Assembly: GCA_035640355.1 (NCBI GenBank)
Contig: DASQWI010000024.1
Location: 1 to 50,197 of the forward strand
Direction of reading: 5' to 3'
DNA: 50,197 bases
Origin: Actinomycetota bacterium
GTDB taxonomy: Bacteria > Actinomycetota > UBA4738 > HRBIN12
A model generated the notes under the pieces. That model was given only the letters and a program-made list of their open reading frames with translations. It did not search any database and was not told the DNA's origin. A program made the translations under genes and the position numbers. Below are positions 27,606 to 47,684 of this stretch, one piece after another; the stretch's first letter is position 1; each line of letters opens with the position of its first letter.

Positions 27606-29325
27606 CGGCGAGCGTGTCGCCCGCCTGAACCACCAGTCCTTCGCGGACCGGTAGCTCCGATACGACACCCTCGCGCGGCGCGGGGATCGCGTTCTCCATC
27701 TTCATCGCCTCGAGGACACATACGACGTCGCCGGCCTGGATCTCCTGGCCCACCTCGACCAGCACCCGGAGGACCGTGCCCTGCATCTGAGCGGTGACGA
27801 CGCTGTGCACGGCCTGGTCGTGGTGCGCGGTCAGGCGACTGGGAGGCCGGGGCGCGGTGTCGCGACGCTGGTCGAAGATCCGCACGGGCACGCGCCGACC
27901 GTCCACTTCGACGAGGAGCTCGGCGGGGACCGGCGGTTTCACCTCGGTCGGCGGGGGTTGCGGGCCCCCCGCGGGGAGCTCGAGCTCCGCGTCACGTAGG
28001 GCCTTCTCGAGCCACGTCGTCGTATGCGTCGACTTGCGGAACGCTCGCGCACCGAGGATCCACCGGTGCAACGGGATCGTCGTCGGAACGCCCTCGACGC
28101 GGAACTCGCCGAGTGCGCGGAGCATCCGCTCGATCGCGCGCTCGCGCGTATCACCCGACACGACGAGCTTCGCGAACATCGAGTCGTAGTCGGAGGGAAT
28201 CTCTCGTCCGGCCTCGATGAACGAGTCGACGCGGACGAACGGACCGGACGGCTCTCGGTACCGCGTGACGCGACCGGGTCCGGGCAGGAAGTTCCGCGCG
28301 GGATCCTCGGCGTTGATGCGGCACTGGATGGCGTGCCCGCGCGGAGCGACGTCGTCGAGCTCGAGCTTGTCGCCGAGTGCGACGCGGATCTGGAGCGCGA
28401 CGAGGTCGAGACCGGTGACCATCTCTGTCACCGTGTGTTCGACCTGAAGGCGCGTGTTCATCTCCAAGAAGTAGAAGGCGCCGTCCTCGTCGACGATTCC
28501 CTCGACCGTGCCGGCGTTGACGTAGCCCGCCTCCTTGGCGAGGGCCAACGCCGACTCGCCGATCCGCGCGCGAAGCTCCGGGTCGACGACCGGCGAGGGC
28601 GTCTCCTCGATCAGCTTCTGGTGGCGCCGCTGCACCGAGCAGTCGCGCTCGCCCAGGAAGAACGCGTTGCCGTGCGTGTCCGCGATCACCTGCGCCTCGA
28701 CGTGGTGCGCGCGATTGATGTATCGCTCGAGGAAGATCTCGGGTCGCCCGAAGTACGCCGTGGCCTCGCGTGCCGAACGCGTGAGCGCAGCCGTGAGCTC
28801 TTCGGGCTTCCTGACGACGTGCATGCCGCGACCGCCGCCGCCGAACGCAGCCTTCACGAGCACCGGATAGCCGATGCGGTCTGCCTCCCGCGGCGCATCC
28901 TCGATCGTGACCGGCTCGGGCGTCCCCGGGACGATGGGAACGCCGATGCGGTCGGCCGCCTGTCTGGCGACGGCCTTGTCGCCCATCATCTCGATGGCGT
29001 CTGCCGGCGGCCCGATGAAGGTGATGTTGGCCTGTTCGACTGCGCGGGCGAACTGGGCGCGCTCGGACAGGAAGCCGTAGCCGGGGTGAACCATCGTCGC
29101 CCTCGACTTGGCGGCCGCTTCCAGGATCGCCCCGATCGACAGGTAGGACTCGGCGGGGAGCGGCGGACCGATCCGGTACGAGTGATCGGCCATCTCGACG
29201 TGGAGCGCGTCGCGATCGGCGTCGCTGTACACGGCGATCGACGTGTAGCCGAGCTCTCGTACGGTCCGGATGATGCGGACGGCGATCTCGCCACGGTTCG
29301 CGATGAGGATCCGAGGTTTCGCCAC
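27595..29325 (-). CDS. accA: acetyl-/propionyl-CoA carboxylase alpha chain (biotin carboxylase-BCCP)
   Basis: 576 residues. Biotin carboxylase part: PRILIANRGEIAVRIIRT start, HPGYGFLSE, the ATP-grasp glycine loop FGGGGRGMH, RDCSVQRRHQKLIEE, EMNTRLQVEHTVTE (catalytic Arg/Glu), then a C-terminal BCCP domain with EAMKMEN and biotinyl Lys542. Carboxylates acetyl- or propionyl-CoA together with a carboxyltransferase subunit that is not in the window. The methylmalonyl-CoA mutase genes nearby favour a propionyl-CoA role. GTG start; it faces away from birA, which encodes the enzyme that biotinylates it. Confidence 0.93.
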   Translation of the reverse strand: MAKPRILIANRGEIAVRIIRTVRELGYTSIAVYSDADRDALHVEMADHSYRIGPPLPAESYLSIGAILEAAAKSRATMVHPGYGFLSERAQFARAVEQANITFIGPPADAIEMMGDKAVARQAADRIGVPIVPGTPEPVTIEDAPREADRIGYPVLVKAAFGGGGRGMHVVRKPEELTAALTRSAREATAYFGRPEIFLERYINRAHHVEAQVIADTHGNAFFLGERDCSVQRRHQKLIEETPSPVVDPELRARIGESALALAKEAGYVNAGTVEGIVDEDGAFYFLEMNTRLQVEHTVTEMVTGLDLVALQIRVALGDKLELDDVAPRGHAIQCRINAEDPARNFLPGPGRVTRYREPSGPFVRVDSFIEAGREIPSDYDSMFAKLVVSGDTRERAIERMLRALGEFRVEGVPTTIPLHRWILGARAFRKSTHTTTWLEKALRDAELELPAGGPQPPPTEVKPPVPAELLVEVDGRRVPVRIFDQRRDTAPRPPSRLTAHHDQAVHSVVTAQMQGTVLRVLVEVGQEIQAGDVVCVLEAMKMENAIPAPREGVVSELPVREGLVVQAGDTLAVID

Positions 29326-39617: not shown

Positions 39618-40778
39618 ATGGCCGAGAAGTCGATGCACGCCCCCAGCCGTCTCTCCGGCCTGCTCTATGCAGCTGTCGCGCTGCTGCTCCTCGCGGCGCT
39701 CTCGCCGGTAGCGAGTGCGCAGACCTCGACGGAGGAACAGCTCGAGGACGCGGAGGCGGAAGTCGACCGGCTCGTCGCGGAAATCTCGCAACAGGAAGGG
39801 GAGCTCGACGGCCTCATGGCCCAGGCCGCCGAGATGTGGCAGCGGGTCCAGGACGCCGAAGCTCGCTTCCAGCAGATCAGTGCGGAACTCGACAAGACGA
39901 GGGAGAACCTTCACGACGCGCAGAACGAGTTCGCGGCGCTTCAGAGGCGGCTCGACGCGCGCGCGCGAGAGACCTTCATGGCCGGGCCGGGGACCGAGCT
40001 CGAGTTCCTGTTCGGTTCGACCTCGCTGGTCGACCTGTCCGCTCGGCTCGAGTACGTGAGCGCCGTCAGCGAGACGGACGTCGACCTGGCCATCGACGTG
40101 CAGAACCTCAAGAACGAGCTGGCGGCGGAGAAGCAGGAGGAAGAGCGCCTCCGGGCGAGTCGCGCGGCCGCGCTTCAACAGGCCCGGGAACAAAAGGCCG
40201 CTGTGGACGCGAACCTCGCCGAGCAACAGCGAATCCTGGACGACCTCGAGGCGAAGAAGGCGAAGGCCGTAGAGCTCGCCAAACGGCTCGACCGCAAGCG
40301 GCAACGAGAGCTCGAGGCGCTAACCGGGGTCCAGTTCTTCGACGGCGTGTTCGAGGTCTGTCCCGTCGATCCGCCGCGCGCGGTGTCAGACGGGTTCGGC
40401 GCGCCTCGCTTCGGCGGCGGATACCACCCGCACGCCGGAAACGACATCATGGCGCCGATGAACACGCCGATCCGCGCGACGTTCGACGGGACGGCGAGCA
40501 CGTCGGTGAACGGCCTCGGGGGGTACGCCGTCTACGTGTACGGCGCGCACGGGTACACGTACAACGCGCATCTCGCGCAACCGGGGGTGACTGGGTCCGT
40601 CAACGCCGGCGACATCATCGGGTACGTCGGAGTCTCGGGCGACGCAACGACGCCCCACAACCACTTCGAGTGGCACCCCTATCAGATCCCGGAGAACTGG
40701 CCGGTCAGTCCCTACGGGTATTCGGTGATCGGTTCGGCCGTGAATCCCTGGCCGCTCCTCTCCCAGGCCTGCTACTAG
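39618..40778 (+). CDS. secreted coiled-coil M23 (LytM-type) metallopeptidase
   Basis: 386 residues. Signal peptide 1-36 (LLYAAVALLLLAALSPVASA), a long coiled coil (about 38-230, with EEQLEDAEAEVDRLVAEI and later E/K/R-rich heptads), then an M23 domain with HPHAGNDIMAP (zinc His and Asp) and the HxH motif in PHNHFEWHP. Resembles NlpC/EnvC-type cell-wall hydrolases and activators exported to the cell surface, likely acting at division or wall turnover. The metal ligands look complete, so it may be active. Its 3' end overlaps the convergent gene by 74 bp. Confidence 0.9.
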   Translation: MAEKSMHAPSRLSGLLYAAVALLLLAALSPVASAQTSTEEQLEDAEAEVDRLVAEISQQEGELDGLMAQAAEMWQRVQDAEARFQQISAELDKTRENLHDAQNEFAALQRRLDARARETFMAGPGTELEFLFGSTSLVDLSARLEYVSAVSETDVDLAIDVQNLKNELAAEKQEEERLRASRAAALQQAREQKAAVDANLAEQQRILDDLEAKKAKAVELAKRLDRKRQRELEALTGVQFFDGVFEVCPVDPPRAVSDGFGAPRFGGGYHPHAGNDIMAPMNTPIRATFDGTASTSVNGLGGYAVYVYGAHGYTYNAHLAQPGVTGSVNAGDIIGYVGVSGDATTPHNHFEWHPYQIPENWPVSPYGYSVIGSAVNPWPLLSQACY

Positions 40779-41646
40779 ATCGCCGTCGGCCGCGCGTCCG
40801 TTCGTCGCGTCGCCCGCGAGGGTCGGTTCGTTTCCTCAAACCACGGCGTCGACGCGCCGATGGCCGGCGCGTGGGTCGGAGCGCCAATACGGCGCCCGCC
40901 GCGAGCGCGATGAGTCCCACCACGATCCCGATCGTTGCGACGTCGCCGCCGCCGTCCGTGGTCGGCGCCGGCGACGCGCGCACTCCCGTCTGAACGACGG
41001 CCACGTAGCCGAGCGTCTCGATCGGTCCGTCGGCCTGCTGGATGCCGCGGAAGTCGTTCGTCTCGACCGAGGTCCATGACTCGCCGTCTGGGGAGACGAT
41101 CACGGCGTGCTGCCAGTGGTCGGTCGAGATGAACGGGTACACGAGCACGACGCGCACGCCTTCGGTCTGGAGAGGAGCCGGGTCGCCCGACGGGACGTAG
41201 TTCCCGCGCAGCCGATACACGTTGCCGAGGATCCGAAGTGGCGGCTCAGGGGGTTCGACCGTGCCGGGCGGGAGTGGTTCGATGCGGACCCGAACGCTCT
41301 GTTGTTGCGCCGCGTTCCCAAATGCACCGCGCGGCAGCACGAGGGTCACCTGGGCGTCGTCGGTCGACACGATCGCAGTCGCGCTTCCTCTGTTGCCGAG
41401 CTTCACCACCGTCGTCACGGGCGTCGGTTCGACGTTCGTCGACGCGAGCTCGGGCGGGGGATCGACCCATCGGTACGGCGCCGGCGGGACGAGTCCGTCG
41501 AGCAGCGGGCGTTGGGCGAGCGGGCTCAGTTGTCCCGAGAACCACGCCGTGGCGATGTAGGCGGCGACAACGGCGCTGCCGACCGCGAGGACCGTTCGGC
41601 TGGGCGTGCCGGAAGGCCCGCGGAGCCGTCGTGGGCGGTCCTTCAC
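40705..41646 (-). CDS. membrane-anchored extracytoplasmic protein (hypothetical), end of the CopCD operon
   Basis: 313 residues. One N-terminal helix (TVLAVGSAVVAAYIATAWF) acts as signal-anchor; the middle is a beta-rich exported region (SATAIVSTDDAQVTLVLPRGAF, YVPSGDP, HAVIVSPDGESW); a second helix lies near 255-275 (IGIVVGLIALAAGAVLAL), then an Arg-rich tail. GTG 41646 overlaps the previous stop by 4 bp (GTGA). The tail runs 74 bp into the peptidase gene on the other strand, so the true C-terminus may be shorter if a frameshift is present. No family recognised. Confidence 0.65.
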   Translation of the reverse strand: MKDRPRRLRGPSGTPSRTVLAVGSAVVAAYIATAWFSGQLSPLAQRPLLDGLVPPAPYRWVDPPPELASTNVEPTPVTTVVKLGNRGSATAIVSTDDAQVTLVLPRGAFGNAAQQQSVRVRIEPLPPGTVEPPEPPLRILGNVYRLRGNYVPSGDPAPLQTEGVRVVLVYPFISTDHWQHAVIVSPDGESWTSVETNDFRGIQQADGPIETLGYVAVVQTGVRASPAPTTDGGGDVATIGIVVGLIALAAGAVLALRPTRRPSARRRRGLRKRTDPRGRRDERTRGRRRSSSRPGRGAARDSRPNRSPNTRRD

Positions 41647-42887
41647 GGGAGCGGATCGATCGGCTCGATACGCGACGTCGCGTACCGCGGCGGCCACACG
41701 ACGGCGTACTCGCCCGGCGCCTGCCACTGCCACACGACGCTCGCGGCGAGGACGTTCGCACCGGCCGTCGCCGTCCCGGCCTCGCCGAACTGGAGACCGC
41801 TGCCGTTCGGCAGCGACCCGATCGGAAGGCGCGTTCGGTTCGCGGAGTCCGCCATCGCCTTCGGTGTAAGCGAGTCGGCGTTCTGCGCCACGACGCCGAG
41901 GAGCGCCCACGCGCCGGAGAACCCGGCGAGCGCGGCGGCGCTCATCGACTCGTCGAATCGGTCCGCGTACGCGTCACGGGCCCGCTCGAGCAGCGCGCGT
42001 CCGCCGGCGGTCAGACCGCGATCGTTCAGCGCCTCGGAGTCGGGCTTGTCCGACGCGAACAGCCCGACGGCTTGCTTGCCGAGCGTCGTGCCGAACTCCG
42101 GCATGCAGTAGCTCGATGACGTTCCGATCGCCGTGAGGACGTCGAGGCCTTGGCGAACCATCTCCCGGCGCATCGCGATCGCGTCCTCCAGGTACGCGGA
42201 CACGAACACGACGTCGGGCTGGGCCGCAGTGAGCTCGCTGATCAGTCGCGTCATGTCGACGGTCCGCGGGTCGTACGGGAGCGTCGCGGCGAGGGTGTAA
42301 TCACGCCGTTCGAGCTCGTCCAGCGCACCCTTCGCGACCGCACGCCCGTACGCGTCGTCGACGAGGGTCACGGCATAGCGCAGCTTCGAGGCGTCCCTAC
42401 CGAGCACCGGCGCATCCCTGTCGGCAACGAAGGCGATCGCGTTGCGGCCGAGGACCGCGCCGCTCGGGGCGACTCGGAAGACGAGCTCGCCCGCGCCGCC
42501 GCCGGTCATCTCCCCCACGGCGCCGGTCTCCCAGAACAACATGCTCCGTCGTGCCGCGGCGTCCGCCGCCGGCGCCGAGATCGTGCTGCCGTAGCTTCCG
42601 AGCACGACGGCGATGCCCTCTCGGTGGAGTTCCTCGACCGCGCCCGGCGCGGCGTCGGCAACCGGAACGTCGAGCGGAACCAGCTCGATCGGCCGGCCGT
42701 CGACGCCGCCGTCCGCGTTCACGAGGTCGACGGCGACCTGAACGCCCCGGTACTCGTCGACACCACCCGGCCCCTGCGATCCGGACAGGGGGTACACCGC
42801 ACCGACACGGATCGGTGCCGGCGCGGGCGAGCACGCCGCACCCGCCACGAACACGGCGGCTATCGAGAGAGCCAGTGCACGCCTCAT
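41643..42887 (-). CDS. ABC-type branched-chain amino acid substrate-binding-like lipoprotein
   Basis: 414 residues. Lipoprotein signal (LALSIAAVFVAGAAC, lipobox GAAC), then a two-lobed periplasmic binding fold of the LivJ type (IRVGAVYPLSGSQGPGG, GVQVAVDLVNADGGV, VVLGSYGSTISAPAADAA, VFVSAYLEDAIAMRREM). No permease or ATPase genes are nearby, so it is an orphan binding protein and may act as a sensor or receptor rather than in uptake. ATG 42887 overlaps the CPBP gene stop by 4 bp; the in-frame extension upstream is spurious. Confidence 0.87.
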   Translation of the reverse strand: MRRALALSIAAVFVAGAACSPAPAPIRVGAVYPLSGSQGPGGVDEYRGVQVAVDLVNADGGVDGRPIELVPLDVPVADAAPGAVEELHREGIAVVLGSYGSTISAPAADAAARRSMLFWETGAVGEMTGGGAGELVFRVAPSGAVLGRNAIAFVADRDAPVLGRDASKLRYAVTLVDDAYGRAVAKGALDELERRDYTLAATLPYDPRTVDMTRLISELTAAQPDVVFVSAYLEDAIAMRREMVRQGLDVLTAIGTSSSYCMPEFGTTLGKQAVGLFASDKPDSEALNDRGLTAGGRALLERARDAYADRFDESMSAAALAGFSGAWALLGVVAQNADSLTPKAMADSANRTRLPIGSLPNGSGLQFGEAGTATAGANVLAASVVWQWQAPGEYAVVWPPRYATSRIEPIDPLP

Positions 42888-43453
42888 CGCAGGATCGCCA
42901 CCGCGTTGGCGAACGCGTGCGTGCCCGCCGGCACGAGCCACGTGCCGGACGCCCACCGCTGCCACCCGAAGAGGGCCCCCGCGCCCAGGTCGACGGGAAG
43001 GGCCGCGACGCCATACGCCGGCAGGTGCACCATGGCGAACAGGATCGCCGAGCCCGCGATGGCAACGAGCGCGCCGTACTTGGCGAGTCGCGCGTACGCG
43101 ACACGGCGAAAGAGCCCTTCCTCCGCGACCGCGGCGAGGAGTGACAGCGGCAGCGCGAGGGACGGGTGCGGCGTTGGTACCGACGGGCCGGCGATCGTCG
43201 ACGCGAAAACGATCGAGGCCGCGCCGATCGCCAGGACAATTGAGGGCGCGACGCGCGGACGTTCGTTCGCGACCGGCACAGCCAGCGAGGATGCCGCGAG
43301 CACCAGGTACGCCGTGGCGAACAGCTGCACGCGCGCGTCGGGCGCGACGCCGACGAACGGGCGCGCGAGCAGCACGACGCTTCCGGCTGCCACGATGACG
43401 AGGGTCGCGCGCGCCGACCGCTGCGCGCTGATGGTGCGGACGTCGGCGCTCAT
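42884..43453 (-). CDS. CPBP-family intramembrane protease-like protein
   Basis: 189 residues, about six helices, with the family motifs EEGLFRR (motif 1, Glu-Glu...Arg) and FAMVHLPAY (motif 2, FxxxH); the third His/Asn motif is near HAFANAVA at the C-terminus. Members include Rce1-like prenyl proteases and bacteriocin-immunity proteins. A type II-like glutamate protease role is inferred. ATGA overlaps on both sides tie it to the lipoprotein genes around it. Confidence 0.85.
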   Translation of the reverse strand: MSADVRTISAQRSARATLVIVAAGSVVLLARPFVGVAPDARVQLFATAYLVLAASSLAVPVANERPRVAPSIVLAIGAASIVFASTIAGPSVPTPHPSLALPLSLLAAVAEEGLFRRVAYARLAKYGALVAIAGSAILFAMVHLPAYGVAALPVDLGAGALFGWQRWASGTWLVPAGTHAFANAVAILR

Positions 43454-43872
43454 CCGCGCGCCTCGAACACGATTGTCGCGATCACGCGCGGGTCGAACGG
43501 CGCGTGATCGTTCGCCACGAACTCCACCGTCAGTCGGTGGACGCCGGGCGCGACGTCTCTGATCCGCTGCCGTGTGCCTTCGGTCATCGAGATGACCTCG
43601 TCGTCGAGCAGGACGTGGAGATGGCCCTCGTCGGGCGCGAGCTCCGTCGTCGTCTGCGGGACGATCCTGGCACCCTCCAGGTCGACCCGCAGATCGACCG
43701 TCGAGCCGCGGACGATCTCTCCGTTCCCCGGAGAGGTCACGGCAAGCTCGGCCGAGCTGCTCGGCCTGGGGATCAGCGAGAGCGTGGCGGTGGGGGAGCC
43801 GCCCGATCCGTCCGAGCCGCCGCATGCGGCGAGCGCTGCTCCGACCAACACGATCGTGATCGTGCGTCTCAT
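43450..43872 (-). CDS. DUF4399-like lipoprotein with GHxH motif
   Basis: 140 residues. Lipoprotein signal (ITIVLVGAALAAC, Cys17), a Ser/Gly linker, then a single beta-sandwich domain with VPQTTTELAPDEGHLHVLLD, SMTEGTRQR, APGVHRLTVEFVANDHAPFDP. The GHxH pair and the late DH resemble DUF4399 proteins. It is clearly paralogous to the membrane-anchored protein at 45815-46327. In a CopC/CopD operon the His cluster suggests metal binding, but that is inference. Overlaps both neighbours by 4 bp. Confidence 0.8.
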   Translation of the reverse strand: MRRTITIVLVGAALAACGGSDGSGGSPTATLSLIPRPSSSAELAVTSPGNGEIVRGSTVDLRVDLEGARIVPQTTTELAPDEGHLHVLLDDEVISMTEGTRQRIRDVAPGVHRLTVEFVANDHAPFDPRVIATIVFEARG

Positions 43873-45818
43873 GTCTCGAAACGCTGCTCGAACGCCGCCG
43901 AAAGGACGCTGCCGTCACGCGCCTCCGCCGTGACGTCGAACGACCATACGCCGGGCGTCAGCTCGATGTTCGCGGCGAAGTGTCCCCGACCGAGCCGCAG
44001 CAGGTCAGGTTCGAATCGCTCATCAGACGGCGCCGTCACTCCGATCACGGCGGATCGTAGCGGGAGCTCTTCCGCGCCCTCGAAGGCCGTCACGTGCACC
44101 TGGTTCGTTCGTCCCGGTGTTCCGGGATCGACGTACGCCTGGATCTGAACCTCGCCGCCGAGGAAGATCGTGTACAGGTCCGGCTGGCCGGGAGCGCGGG
44201 AGACCTCGACGCGCTGGTCCGGCACTCGGGGAGTGACACGAAGGTCGACCGTTGTCGAGTCGCCGGCGCCCTGGACGAGCACAGTGACGCTCCAGGTACC
44301 GGGCATCGCCAGCGTTGTCGACTCGGCGTGCCACGTGCCGTCTTCCATCGGTTCGAGGTCGAGCTCGGAGGCGACCTCCGGTCGCGCCGGAAGGTCGAAT
44401 CGCAGGCTCACCTGTTGCGCGTCGACGGGTTCGCCCGTGTCGAAGTCGGTCACGTCGGCTACGAACTCGTTCGGCCCGACTGCGCCCGGCGATATCTGCA
44501 GACGCACCCTGGTCGTCGTGGCGAAGTCCGAGCCCGTCACGACGAGCGGTCGTTCGGCAGGAGCGAGGTCCGATCCTTCCTGCGGCGGCAGTCCGGTCAT
44601 GACGCCTGTCACCGCGAAGACCGTCGCGGCCAGTCCGAGCTCGGCGCCCACCGTTCGAAGGAGCGGGCGCGAGCCGGCGCGTTCGATCCGCGCGACGTTC
44701 CGGAACCGATTCAACGCGCCGAGCCCGACGAGCGGAACCACCACACCGAGCTTCACGACGAGCGCCGTGCTGTAGTCGTTCTCGAACGGGTCGAGCCACC
44801 ATCCCAATCCGCCGAGCTCGTTCGCTGCGCGGAGGAAGCCGGATACGAACAGCATGGCGAGCCCCACGGCCGCGAGGTTCGAGAAACGCCGAACCGTCCT
44901 CGGTTCGAGACCGCGTCGCAGCGATAGGACGAGCCACGCGAGACCGCCGATCCACGCGCCGACCGCCATGAGGTGAAGCCACTGTTCGCCGACCGCGGTG
45001 ACCGATCCGCCGGCATGACCGGTCAGCGCCCGCACGAACATCGCGGCGGCCGTCGCGGCGGCGAGGAGGGCGAGCGTGGCCCGGCTCGTATGAACCGCGG
45101 CGACGAGCGTGGCAAGGCCGGCCACGCCGACGGCGATCGCCAGGCCGACGAAGTCACCTCCCGCCTTCGAGGAGAGCAACGTCCCTAGCGGTACCGACAA
45201 CACCGCACGCTCTTCCAGTGTGATGACGACCACGCCGACGGCGACGCCGATCCACGCGACCGCCAGGACCGCCGGGCGGGCAATCGTGTTCGGACCGAAG
45301 ACGACGAGACCGGCGACGGCGGCACCGAACAGAACGGCCAACCCGACGTACAGGCCCCACTTTCCGGTGACGGCGAGGGGACTCGGCGGCGGCGTCTCGT
45401 CGCGGGGAACGACTCCACTGACCTCTCCTCGAGTGACACCAACGCCGAACGTGAACGCGCCGGCCGTGACGTGGCCGTCGGTCTCGGAGACGGTTCGCCA
45501 CGTGACGGTGTAGACGCCGTCGTCCAGTTCGGGAAGGCCGAACCGGATCTCGCGTTCCGTGCCGGGCACGCGTTCGGGCGGGCCGGTGGTGGCCACCGGG
45601 ACGCCACCGGCGTCGACGCCGATCGTCGTGAGTGACACGTCGGGCGGCTCGGTGAACGTGAGACGGATCTCGTCCGGCGGCGCCTGGAGGATCTCACCAC
45701 TCGCGGGGTCGGACTCGTCGAGCGCGGCATGGGCGAGTGCGGGCGTCGAGAACCACGTCGTCCCGAGGACCACGCCAACCCCCGAGAGGAGCGCGATCCG
45801 CGAGACGAGGCGTCTCAT
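43869..45818 (-). CDS. CopC-CopD fusion with C-terminal YtkA/FixH-like domain
   Basis: 649 residues in three parts. Signal peptide and CopC (1-130): mature N-terminus [15 protein letters not shown] with the copper His, and [13 protein letters not shown] near its end. CopD (about 150-430): eight helices including [23 protein letters not shown]-terminal part (about 450-649): beta-sandwich domains of YtkA type ([37 protein letters not shown]). CopC binds copper in the periplasm and CopD is implicated in its import. The fused third domain suggests an added metal or chaperone function. ATG 45818 overlaps the upstream stop by 4 bp; the frame to 46289 is a shadow. Confidence 0.88.
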
Positions 45819-46327
45819 CGTTCTTCCGTGAAGAACTCGACGGCCGTCACGACTGGCGGCGCGAACGGCACGTGATCCGCGGCGACGAACTCGGCCATCA
45901 ATCGATGCGGTCCGGGGGCGAGGTCGTCGAGCGGCACGCGCTGTTGGGTCCCGTAGGTCATCGAGACGATCTCGCCGTCGAGGTACAGATGGATGTGTCC
46001 GGTGTCGGGCGTGACGTTCGTCGTCGTCTGTTGAACGACCTGTCCGCCTTCGAGGCGGAGGCGGACGCCCAGCCATAGGCCGGAAACGCTCGCACCCGGC
46101 GACGGTTCGACGAAAGCGATCGAGGCCGTCGACGTGGGACGAGGCCCAGCCGCCTGTTGTGGGAACAGCAACGACGGGACCGCCAACGCGGCAAAGAGCG
46201 ACGCGGGCGCGAGCGCAACAAGCGACCAGGCGCCCCATCGCGGGAGCCGGTAGAACCCGCGATGCCGGATGCGCGTGAGCCCGATCCACGCGAGCACGAC
46301 GCCACCGCTGACGAGCGCGGTGGACAA
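45815..46327 (-). CDS. membrane-anchored DUF4399-like protein with GHxH motif
   Basis: 170 residues: two helices (about 4-18 and 33-55) and an exported domain with [50 protein letters not shown], aligned along its length with the lipoprotein at 43450. Start: TTG 46327 is the first usual codon, but the in-frame sequence just upstream reads [11 protein letters not shown], which looks coding, so a rare start codon or sequence error is possible. Overlaps CopCD by 4 bp. The His motif suggests a copper-handling helper. Confidence 0.75.
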
Positions 46328-46356
46328 CAGCTCGTCGGCGCCGCCGGCATGCGCGA

Positions 46357-47031
46357 TTAGGCCCGTGCCGGTCTCCTTCGCGCCGCGACGAGTGCGGCGA
46401 CGGCGGTGATCACTCCGAGGGCCCCGACGACGACGCCGATCAGCCCAAGCGTCCGCGCTCCCGCCGCGTCGTCTGACGCTTCCGTCGATGCGGCGCGCAC
46501 GTCGTCGATCGCTGTGGTGAGCCGCGGCACCTCACGGTCGATGCGGTCCGCGAGCTCGCCTGTCGTTGGGTCCTGCTCAGGGAACTGGATCTCTGCCGGA
46601 TCGTTCACGTCGCCAAACGTCCGCGGACCCGACGTGAACGACTCGTCGATCTCCTCGTCCGCGATGGTCCCGCTGAAGTGGAACGTGTAGTGACCCGGAC
46701 GGGTCGGGATGAACCACGCGCGATAGTCGCCAGGCTCGCCGGACGCGCCGACGGCGAAGTTCGGCTCGAGCTGAAGCGCCATGGTCTGGTCGCCGAACTC
46801 GACCTCGACGTCGACGGTGTCGCCGAGATCGACGACCGGCTCGCCGCCGTGGCTCAGGATCAGCTGCACGCTGTTCGGCTGGCCGGCGTATGCCGGCTCG
46901 GTCCCGAACCCCACGACCATCTCCAGGTCGCCGTGCGTCCGTCCTTCATGAGCGGATGCGGCCGGCGCGAGGCCGACCACGACGATCGTGACGATGGACG
47001 CGGTCAGCGTGCGCGTCACGTTCTTGGACAA
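46357..47031 (-). CDS. exported, C-terminally anchored protein of the CopCD operon
   Basis: 224 residues. Signal peptide ([17 protein letters not shown]) with a mature end [11 protein letters not shown], rich in His, an Ig-like beta domain ([40 protein letters not shown]), a charged helical stalk, and a C-terminal helix plus RRRP tail. It recalls YcnI-like copper proteins, but I could not confirm this family. TTG start is supported by AAAGGAG 6 nt upstream. It precedes the DUF4399-like gene by 29 bp. Confidence 0.75.
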
Positions 47032-47090
47032 TGCCCTCTCCTTTCGGGACTTGCGTTGGCGCGGCTCAGCCGCGCCTGCAACGACGGAAG

Positions 47091-47684
47091 TCAGCGAAGG
47101 GGAGGTGCGCGTTGAGCGCTCGACCGGTGGGCGTCCCGGTGACGATGGACGTCGTTCGCCGCCGGAAGCGCGAAGGCGGGAACGAGCCTTGGAGTCGGTA
47201 GCGCCGTCCACCTCGCGCCGACGAGACGGGCCGAGGATCGCGCGATCCACCGAAGGACCGCCGAGCCGACGAACGCCACGACGACCTGCGCGGCGAAGCC
47301 GACGACGAGCAGGTGTTCGTGGACGAGATCCGCGAGCGGCGCGCCCGTTGCGATGCGCTCCATGAATTCCTGACCCGCGAACGCGCTCGCCTGCACCACA
47401 GCAAGTCGCGCCGCGAGCGTGAGCCAACGATCCGACGCCGACTCCCGCCGCGAGAGGATGCCGCCGATCGCTGCCGCGGACGCGCCGGCGAACGCGAGGA
47501 TCAGCGCCAGTTGGGCTGCCGCGGGCAGGTAGTCGTGACCGGTGCGCGAGAGAACCAGGTCACGGTGATGTGGATCGGGCATCGCCAGGACGTACGCCAG
47601 CGCGTGACCGAGCACGAGGCCGGCGACGGCGAACGCGAATACCGAGGTACGGCGGAGCCTGCCTACCGATGTCCAGTTGCGCAC
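47091..47684 (-). CDS. four-span membrane protein with periplasmic His residues, first gene of the CopCD operon
   Basis: 197 residues with four helices (about 15-34, 54-72, 85-108, 120-145). Several His fall at helix ends: GHALAY, PHHRDL, TGHDYL and VHEHLL, an arrangement that could ligate copper or heme. The last 30 residues are Ala/Arg/His-rich. GTG 47684 is used; a TACAAT box lies about 40 nt upstream. It is divergent from the 3-hydroxyacyl-CoA dehydrogenase gene. Not recognised as a named family. Confidence 0.7.
   Translation of the reverse strand: MRNWTSVGRLRRTSVFAFAVAGLVLGHALAYVLAMPDPHHRDLVLSRTGHDYLPAAAQLALILAFAGASAAAIGGILSRRESASDRWLTLAARLAVVQASAFAGQEFMERIATGAPLADLVHEHLLVVGFAAQVVVAFVGSAVLRWIARSSARLVGARWTALPTPRLVPAFALPAANDVHRHRDAHRSSAQRAPPLR

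Follow-up and report, generated by a model that had tools for sequence, protein, structure and literature searches.

Eight open reading frames (hereafter A to H) lie in one consecutive order on the minus strand at positions 47684-40705 of the window, by which we mean the whole 50,197-nucleotide stretch of Actinomycetota DNA that was analysed, and the gene order, strand, and interval are those given in an earlier note on this sequence. The genes and the short overlaps that join them are as follows.

47091..47684, minus strand: gene A, His-rich membrane protein of 197 aa with 9 His; GTG start
46357..47031, minus strand: gene B, exported beta-sandwich protein with a C-terminal transmembrane (TM) anchor; TTG start
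45815..46327, minus strand: gene C, membrane-anchored DUF4399-like (GHxH) protein; TTG start given
43869..45818, minus strand: gene D, YcnJ-type importer with CopC (30-126), CopD membrane part, YtkA (433-513), and a fourth C-terminal domain
43450..43872, minus strand: gene E, DUF4399-like lipoprotein with GHLH; first gene of the separable E-F-G-H module
42884..43453, minus strand: gene F, CPBP/Rce1-like intramembrane protease; EExxxR, FxxxH, and HxxxN present
41643..42887, minus strand: gene G, orphan LivJ-type (Peripla_BP_6) lipoprotein with an SSSYC motif
40705..41646, minus strand: gene H, anchored protein of no known family, with N- and C-terminal TM segments and a basic tail
45818-45815, minus strand: overlap C/D, ATGA
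43872-43869, minus strand: overlap D/E, ATGA
43453-43450, minus strand: overlap E/F, ATGA
42887-42884, minus strand: overlap F/G, ATGA
41646-41643, minus strand: overlap G/H, GTGA

The five successive 4-base overlaps previously claimed for this operon were thus all recovered, four as ATGA and one as GTGA, and the junction between A and B is a gap of 59 nt. A crude gene call of the whole window gave 15 further junctions between close neighbours on one strand, and only two of these overlap in this manner, so that five in succession are not background. Moreover, all five are present again in one relative (L021), as are E/F, F/G, and G/H in another (L037), and this retention, along with the low overlap rate in the window, argues that A to H are one tightly coupled unit and not a chance arrangement. 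The products are membrane or exported proteins only, as had been proposed, with hydropathy and lipoboxes in agreement for every one of them. Also in keeping with the earlier description, we saw neither a metalloregulator nor a P-type ATPase inside the operon, and the same was true of an ABC permease, a multicopper oxidase, and an efflux gene. At its far end (40705-40778), the operon runs 74 bp into the 3' end of a convergent M23 peptidase gene, the shared part encoding the basic tail at the C-terminus of H. With regard to gene C, there is no ATG, GTG, or TTG ahead of the TTG at 46327, and its relatives start some 10 codons earlier (M-IAHAGG), so that the true start is probably about 10 codons upstream. 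Here, on the minus strand of 46327-46366, an AAGGAG is found 6 nt ahead of an in-frame ACG at 46366, so that C may use a rare start codon or the assembly may contain an error.

In D, the CopC (residues 30-126, 72 bits), CopD (307-407, 57 bits), and YtkA (433-513, 37 bits) Pfam domains all score above their cut-offs, and the alignment reveals a fourth C-terminal extracellular domain at about 535-649. Its description as a CopCD fusion was therefore right about the two domains named, but incomplete, as it left out YtkA and this further extracellular domain. The CopC histidine brace (mature N-terminal His and second His) is present in D, where H30 aligns with residue 1 of the solved mature CopC and H116 with the second histidine. 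In an alignment of seven sequences, H116 and D114 are invariant, and H30 is found in all six that cover its position. H268 and H282 are likewise invariant in these seven sequences. The experimentally studied YcnJ of Bacillus subtilis is a CopC-CopD-YtkA copper importer that acts in uptake, with CopC and CopD histidines required for growth under copper limitation, the essential one in CopD being H295 (of which H282 of D may or may not be the counterpart), and with a YtkA domain that helps cytochrome c oxidase (PMC13344008). YcnJ also exchanges Cu(II) with YcnI, a protein with an N-terminal-His copper site and a C-terminal anchor (PMC12362106). D shares with YcnJ the three domains, their order, and the histidine-brace residues of CopC, but carries the fourth C-terminal domain in addition. 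In comparison with ycnKJI, the A-H operon lacks both a YcnK-type regulator and a DUF1775 protein, and contains A, C, E, F, G, and H as additional genes. Copper handling by D can hence be regarded as well supported by homology, and the suggestion of copper acquisition centred on this protein is borne out by its YcnJ domain layout and its CopC copper ligands.

Gene A, which occupies a conserved position in front of B and has a C-terminal RxPP motif, matched no Pfam or NCBIfam family. For gene B, there was no match to any Pfam family, DUF1775 (PF07987) included, and nothing credible emerged when its sequence profile was compared with solved structures. However, its mature N-terminal histidine (H28) and E45 are invariant in all sequences of two alignments. 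The structural model of B, of middling confidence overall (mean pLDDT 70, with most sandwich blocks at 84-93), consists of strands at 28-133, a long helix, and then a C-terminal TM-like helix at 194-218, and its best solved match is CrdA from Helicobacter pylori (TM 0.69-0.72 by target length). Nonetheless, CrdA has no histidine and a Met-rich site (PMC9182242), whereas B has the invariant N-terminal His, E45, and a membrane anchor. Like YcnI, B is an extracellular beta-sandwich (according to the model) that begins with a histidine once mature and is anchored at its C-terminus, though this is a resemblance in likely working and not family membership, given that DUF1775 is not matched, and the Trp of the YcnI copper site has no conserved equivalent in B. 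DUF1775/YcnI is absent from this genome, and was found in one of 27 genomes of the class, there about 135 bp behind a CopCD. Because of the mature N-terminal His, the C-terminal anchor, and the CrdA-like model, B may stand in for YcnI, although it does not belong to that family.

The first accounts of CopC and CopD concerned copper resistance, and this origin, the copper resistance determinant CrdA as the best structural match of B, and the several His-bearing extracytoplasmic domains would all suit an operon that serves mainly in copper tolerance by binding or sequestering excess copper. Yet the lack of a P-type ATPase, a multicopper oxidase, and an efflux gene speaks against such a function, as does YcnJ, the nearest architecture, which acts in uptake (PMC13344008), and we consider copper tolerance an unlikely main role.

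The two GHxH proteins reported earlier are indeed present, as C and E, and their GHxH region matches DUF4399 (PF14347), but with 26.2 and 26.3 bits they fall just under the curated cut-off of 28; C differs further from this family by its two added TM segments. Nevertheless, H84, H86, and H123 (E numbering) are invariant in 15 sequences of both the C and E types. A profile of C and E found no credible relative by sequence among solved structures, and the portion of the literature on DUF4399 that was accessible gives no function for the family. The model of E (pLDDT 80) shows an Ig/FN3-like sandwich of a generic kind, and as CopC ranks no higher than 43rd among its structural matches, we draw no copper inference from it.

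Among the remaining products, F and G are clearly what they had been taken to be. F is a CPBP/Rce1-like (PF02517) protein, scoring 54 bits and thus above the cut-off, and it keeps all the catalytic motifs of these glutamic intramembrane proteases (EExxxR, FxxxH, and HxxxN); across 12 sequences, E112, R116, H143, H179, and N183 are invariant and E111 nearly so. What sets it apart from them is its location within a metal operon and the lack of a known substrate. In this respect, the C-terminal TM segments of B and H are both followed by basic residues, and F gives weak matches to the MrtJ, MrtS, and MrtX models, which would suit a sorting protease acting on these two anchors as the Mrt enzymes act on their CTERM targets. 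We rejected this reading as very improbable, however, as the scores are far below the cut-offs (25 bits versus 75 for MrtJ, 18 versus 130 for MrtS), there is no common motif ahead of the B and H anchors, and A-B-C-D loci without F (L039 and L044) keep the same B anchor.

G is a Peripla_BP_6 protein (104 bits) that also matches solved LivJ-type proteins, and it is an orphan as claimed, because no ABC permease or ATPase adjoins it in the operon; the eight LivH/M-type permease matches in the genome lie on other contigs. In LivJ-type proteins, the glutamate of the GEG motif binds the amino group of leucine. When G is aligned with a solved LivJ-type protein, Thr256 occupies the position of this glutamate, so that G, in spite of sharing the fold of the LivJ/HAAT branched-chain amino-acid binding proteins, is probably not an amino-acid binder of the usual kind. 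Unlike in those proteins, Thr256 is followed by an SSSYC motif, which occurs in every relative read (as SSSFC in L081) except L085. For L080, whose row in one alignment had slipped out of frame and was disregarded, G was read separately. At this last locus (from G049), a proline-rich exported protein takes the place of F between E and that same G (2419-2973). Finally, H has a DG-PPxPYRWVxPP motif, and neither a match to any known family nor, with its profile against solved structures, anything credible was found.

The gene neighbourhoods of relatives reveal that the operon is conserved, and that it comprises two separable modules, A-B-(C)-D and E-F-G-H, the second of which is passed on as a block and mostly found immediately after D. 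The A-H order is identical in L021 (G016) and L026 (G006), and in the former the operon is bordered, as in the window, by acyl-CoA dehydrogenase-like and M23 peptidase genes. In G015, the positions of D, G, and H and the spacing of the open reading frames fit this order (D, G, and H being read, E and F placed by spacing), G013 (L027) retains it with only G missing, and in G019 (L037) C is located behind H. The sister genus g2, on the other hand, has A-B-C-D without E-H at a site with the same dehydrogenase and M23 flanks (L039 and L044), and E-F-G-H elsewhere, directly behind a FUR-family gene in the two species that allow this to be seen (G003 and G004). In more distant loci (L038, L040, L042 from Dormibacterota, and L043), B-D is kept with or without A and a GHxH protein.

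We then counted G at E<=1e-60 among 396 genomes drawn evenly from the phylum and found it in 22 of these, from seven families, bearing in mind that such counts come from sampled, often fragmented genomes and that related species are not independent. Leaving aside four genomes owing to contig ends (G001, G038, G074, and G199), D immediately precedes E...G, in the same orientation, in 11 of the 18 decidable ones (G000, G006, G015, G016, G019, G032, G046, G052, G060, G065, and G080). There is no link to D in G002-G004, G049, and G063, with E/F-G being detached from D in the last two, and in G111, D is about 2.3 kb off and on the opposite strand. F was read directly in G032, G046, G052, G060, G063, G065, G074, G080, G101, G111, and G199. 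With such a conserved association, the partners are not mostly found away from CopCD, the outcome that the earlier note had named as counting against its idea. Its interpretation as a whole is partly supported: the partners do associate with CopCD, but as two separable modules and not as fixed parts of the putative complex for copper acquisition or sensing. Several local variants were also noticed. A small membrane protein with only the fourth domain of D occupies the place of D in G101 (L087, 5103-6059), and apparently three tandem H-like genes are behind G in G111 (L086, 3015-5579). In three genomes, at L080 (671-1963), L086 (7475-8707), and L088 (993-2084), E-F-G-H is adjoined by a recurring membrane protein whose mature form probably starts with His (AHGVG/AHTTG), and the two copies tested matched no Pfam family.

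As to which metal is involved, copper is the default on account of D, B, and the comparison with YcnJ, and the fold of G is uninformative in this regard. The FUR-family gene before E-F-G-H in g2 has FurB/Zur, the Zur-type regulators of Mycobacterium and Streptomyces, as its best solved matches, and its product and the Zur encoded in the znu-type zinc operon of the genome studied here share 60% identity across 119 aa. Because E-F-G-H in this sister genus is directly behind a Zur-like regulator, E to H may answer to zinc or another metal. One can thus envisage A-D as a copper importer and E-F-G-H as an independent metal or stress module, for zinc or nickel, which merely shares its promoter, and a NicO-family metal transporter gene immediately behind A-B-D-C in L038 (12467-13384) would also fit. 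Nevertheless, the regulator link is confined to one genus, no Zur-box-like site above chance was found in the window, around the regulator loci (L065 and L066), or in L021, and D stands directly before E in the 11 of 18 decidable genomes, with overlapping frames in the window and L021. We accordingly view this independence of E-F-G-H as somewhat unlikely. Zur control of the window operon was itself discarded, the only box-like match (2 mismatches) being at 28416, outside the operon and at chance level. At L065 (G004) and L066 (G003), the Zur-like gene before E-F-G-H ends a run of glycosyltransferase genes. The zinc uptake operon of the own genome (L071, 9241-12275; ZnuA/AztC-like, ATPase, permease, and Zur) contains, where its znuA-like gene starts, a Zur-box-like sequence with one mismatch, and a NicO-like gene (L072, 7114-7980) lies beside the other FUR gene of this genome.

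Taken together, A to H are best explained as an operon of the YcnJ type for the uptake and trafficking of Cu(II) that includes a conserved accessory module for recognition and proteolysis, a reading to which we give a probability of roughly 0.6. In such an operon, B and the CopC domain of D would capture Cu(II) outside the membrane and hand it to the CopD channel of D, and C and E, together with the domains at the C-terminal end of D, might hold extracytoplasmic copper or hand it on, for instance to heme-copper oxidases. E-F-G-H would then have an accessory role in recognition: G would bind a small molecule outside the cell, which may be a copper complex, and F would cut or control one of the anchored proteins H, B, or C. 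These last two steps, recognition of a ligand by G and control through proteolysis by F, are the weakest of this mechanism, and the roles of F, G, and H, as well as the metal specificity of E to H, are inferred. A more specific version, in which E-F-G-H recognizes extracellular copper complexes, would have G, with its SSSYC motif, capture a copper-ligand complex or copper-scavenging molecule without an ABC permease, the GHxH lipoprotein deliver to CopCD, and a signal pass via intramembrane proteolysis by F; this we hold to be quite improbable.

The operon as such is real and conserved, and while the YcnJ-type importer is known, its four-gene companion E-F-G-H may be new, no description of such an accessory unit having been found in the literature searched. 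Bacterial copper import is poorly understood relative to export. By recurring behind a YcnJ-type importer in several families of the phylum, E-F-G-H points to steps of copper capture or control that are undescribed for YcnJ and YcnI, a pointer based on its protease with intact catalytic motifs and its orphan ligand-binding lipoprotein. Moreover, the operon supplies a functional context for DUF4399-like proteins and for the unnamed families of A, B, and H.
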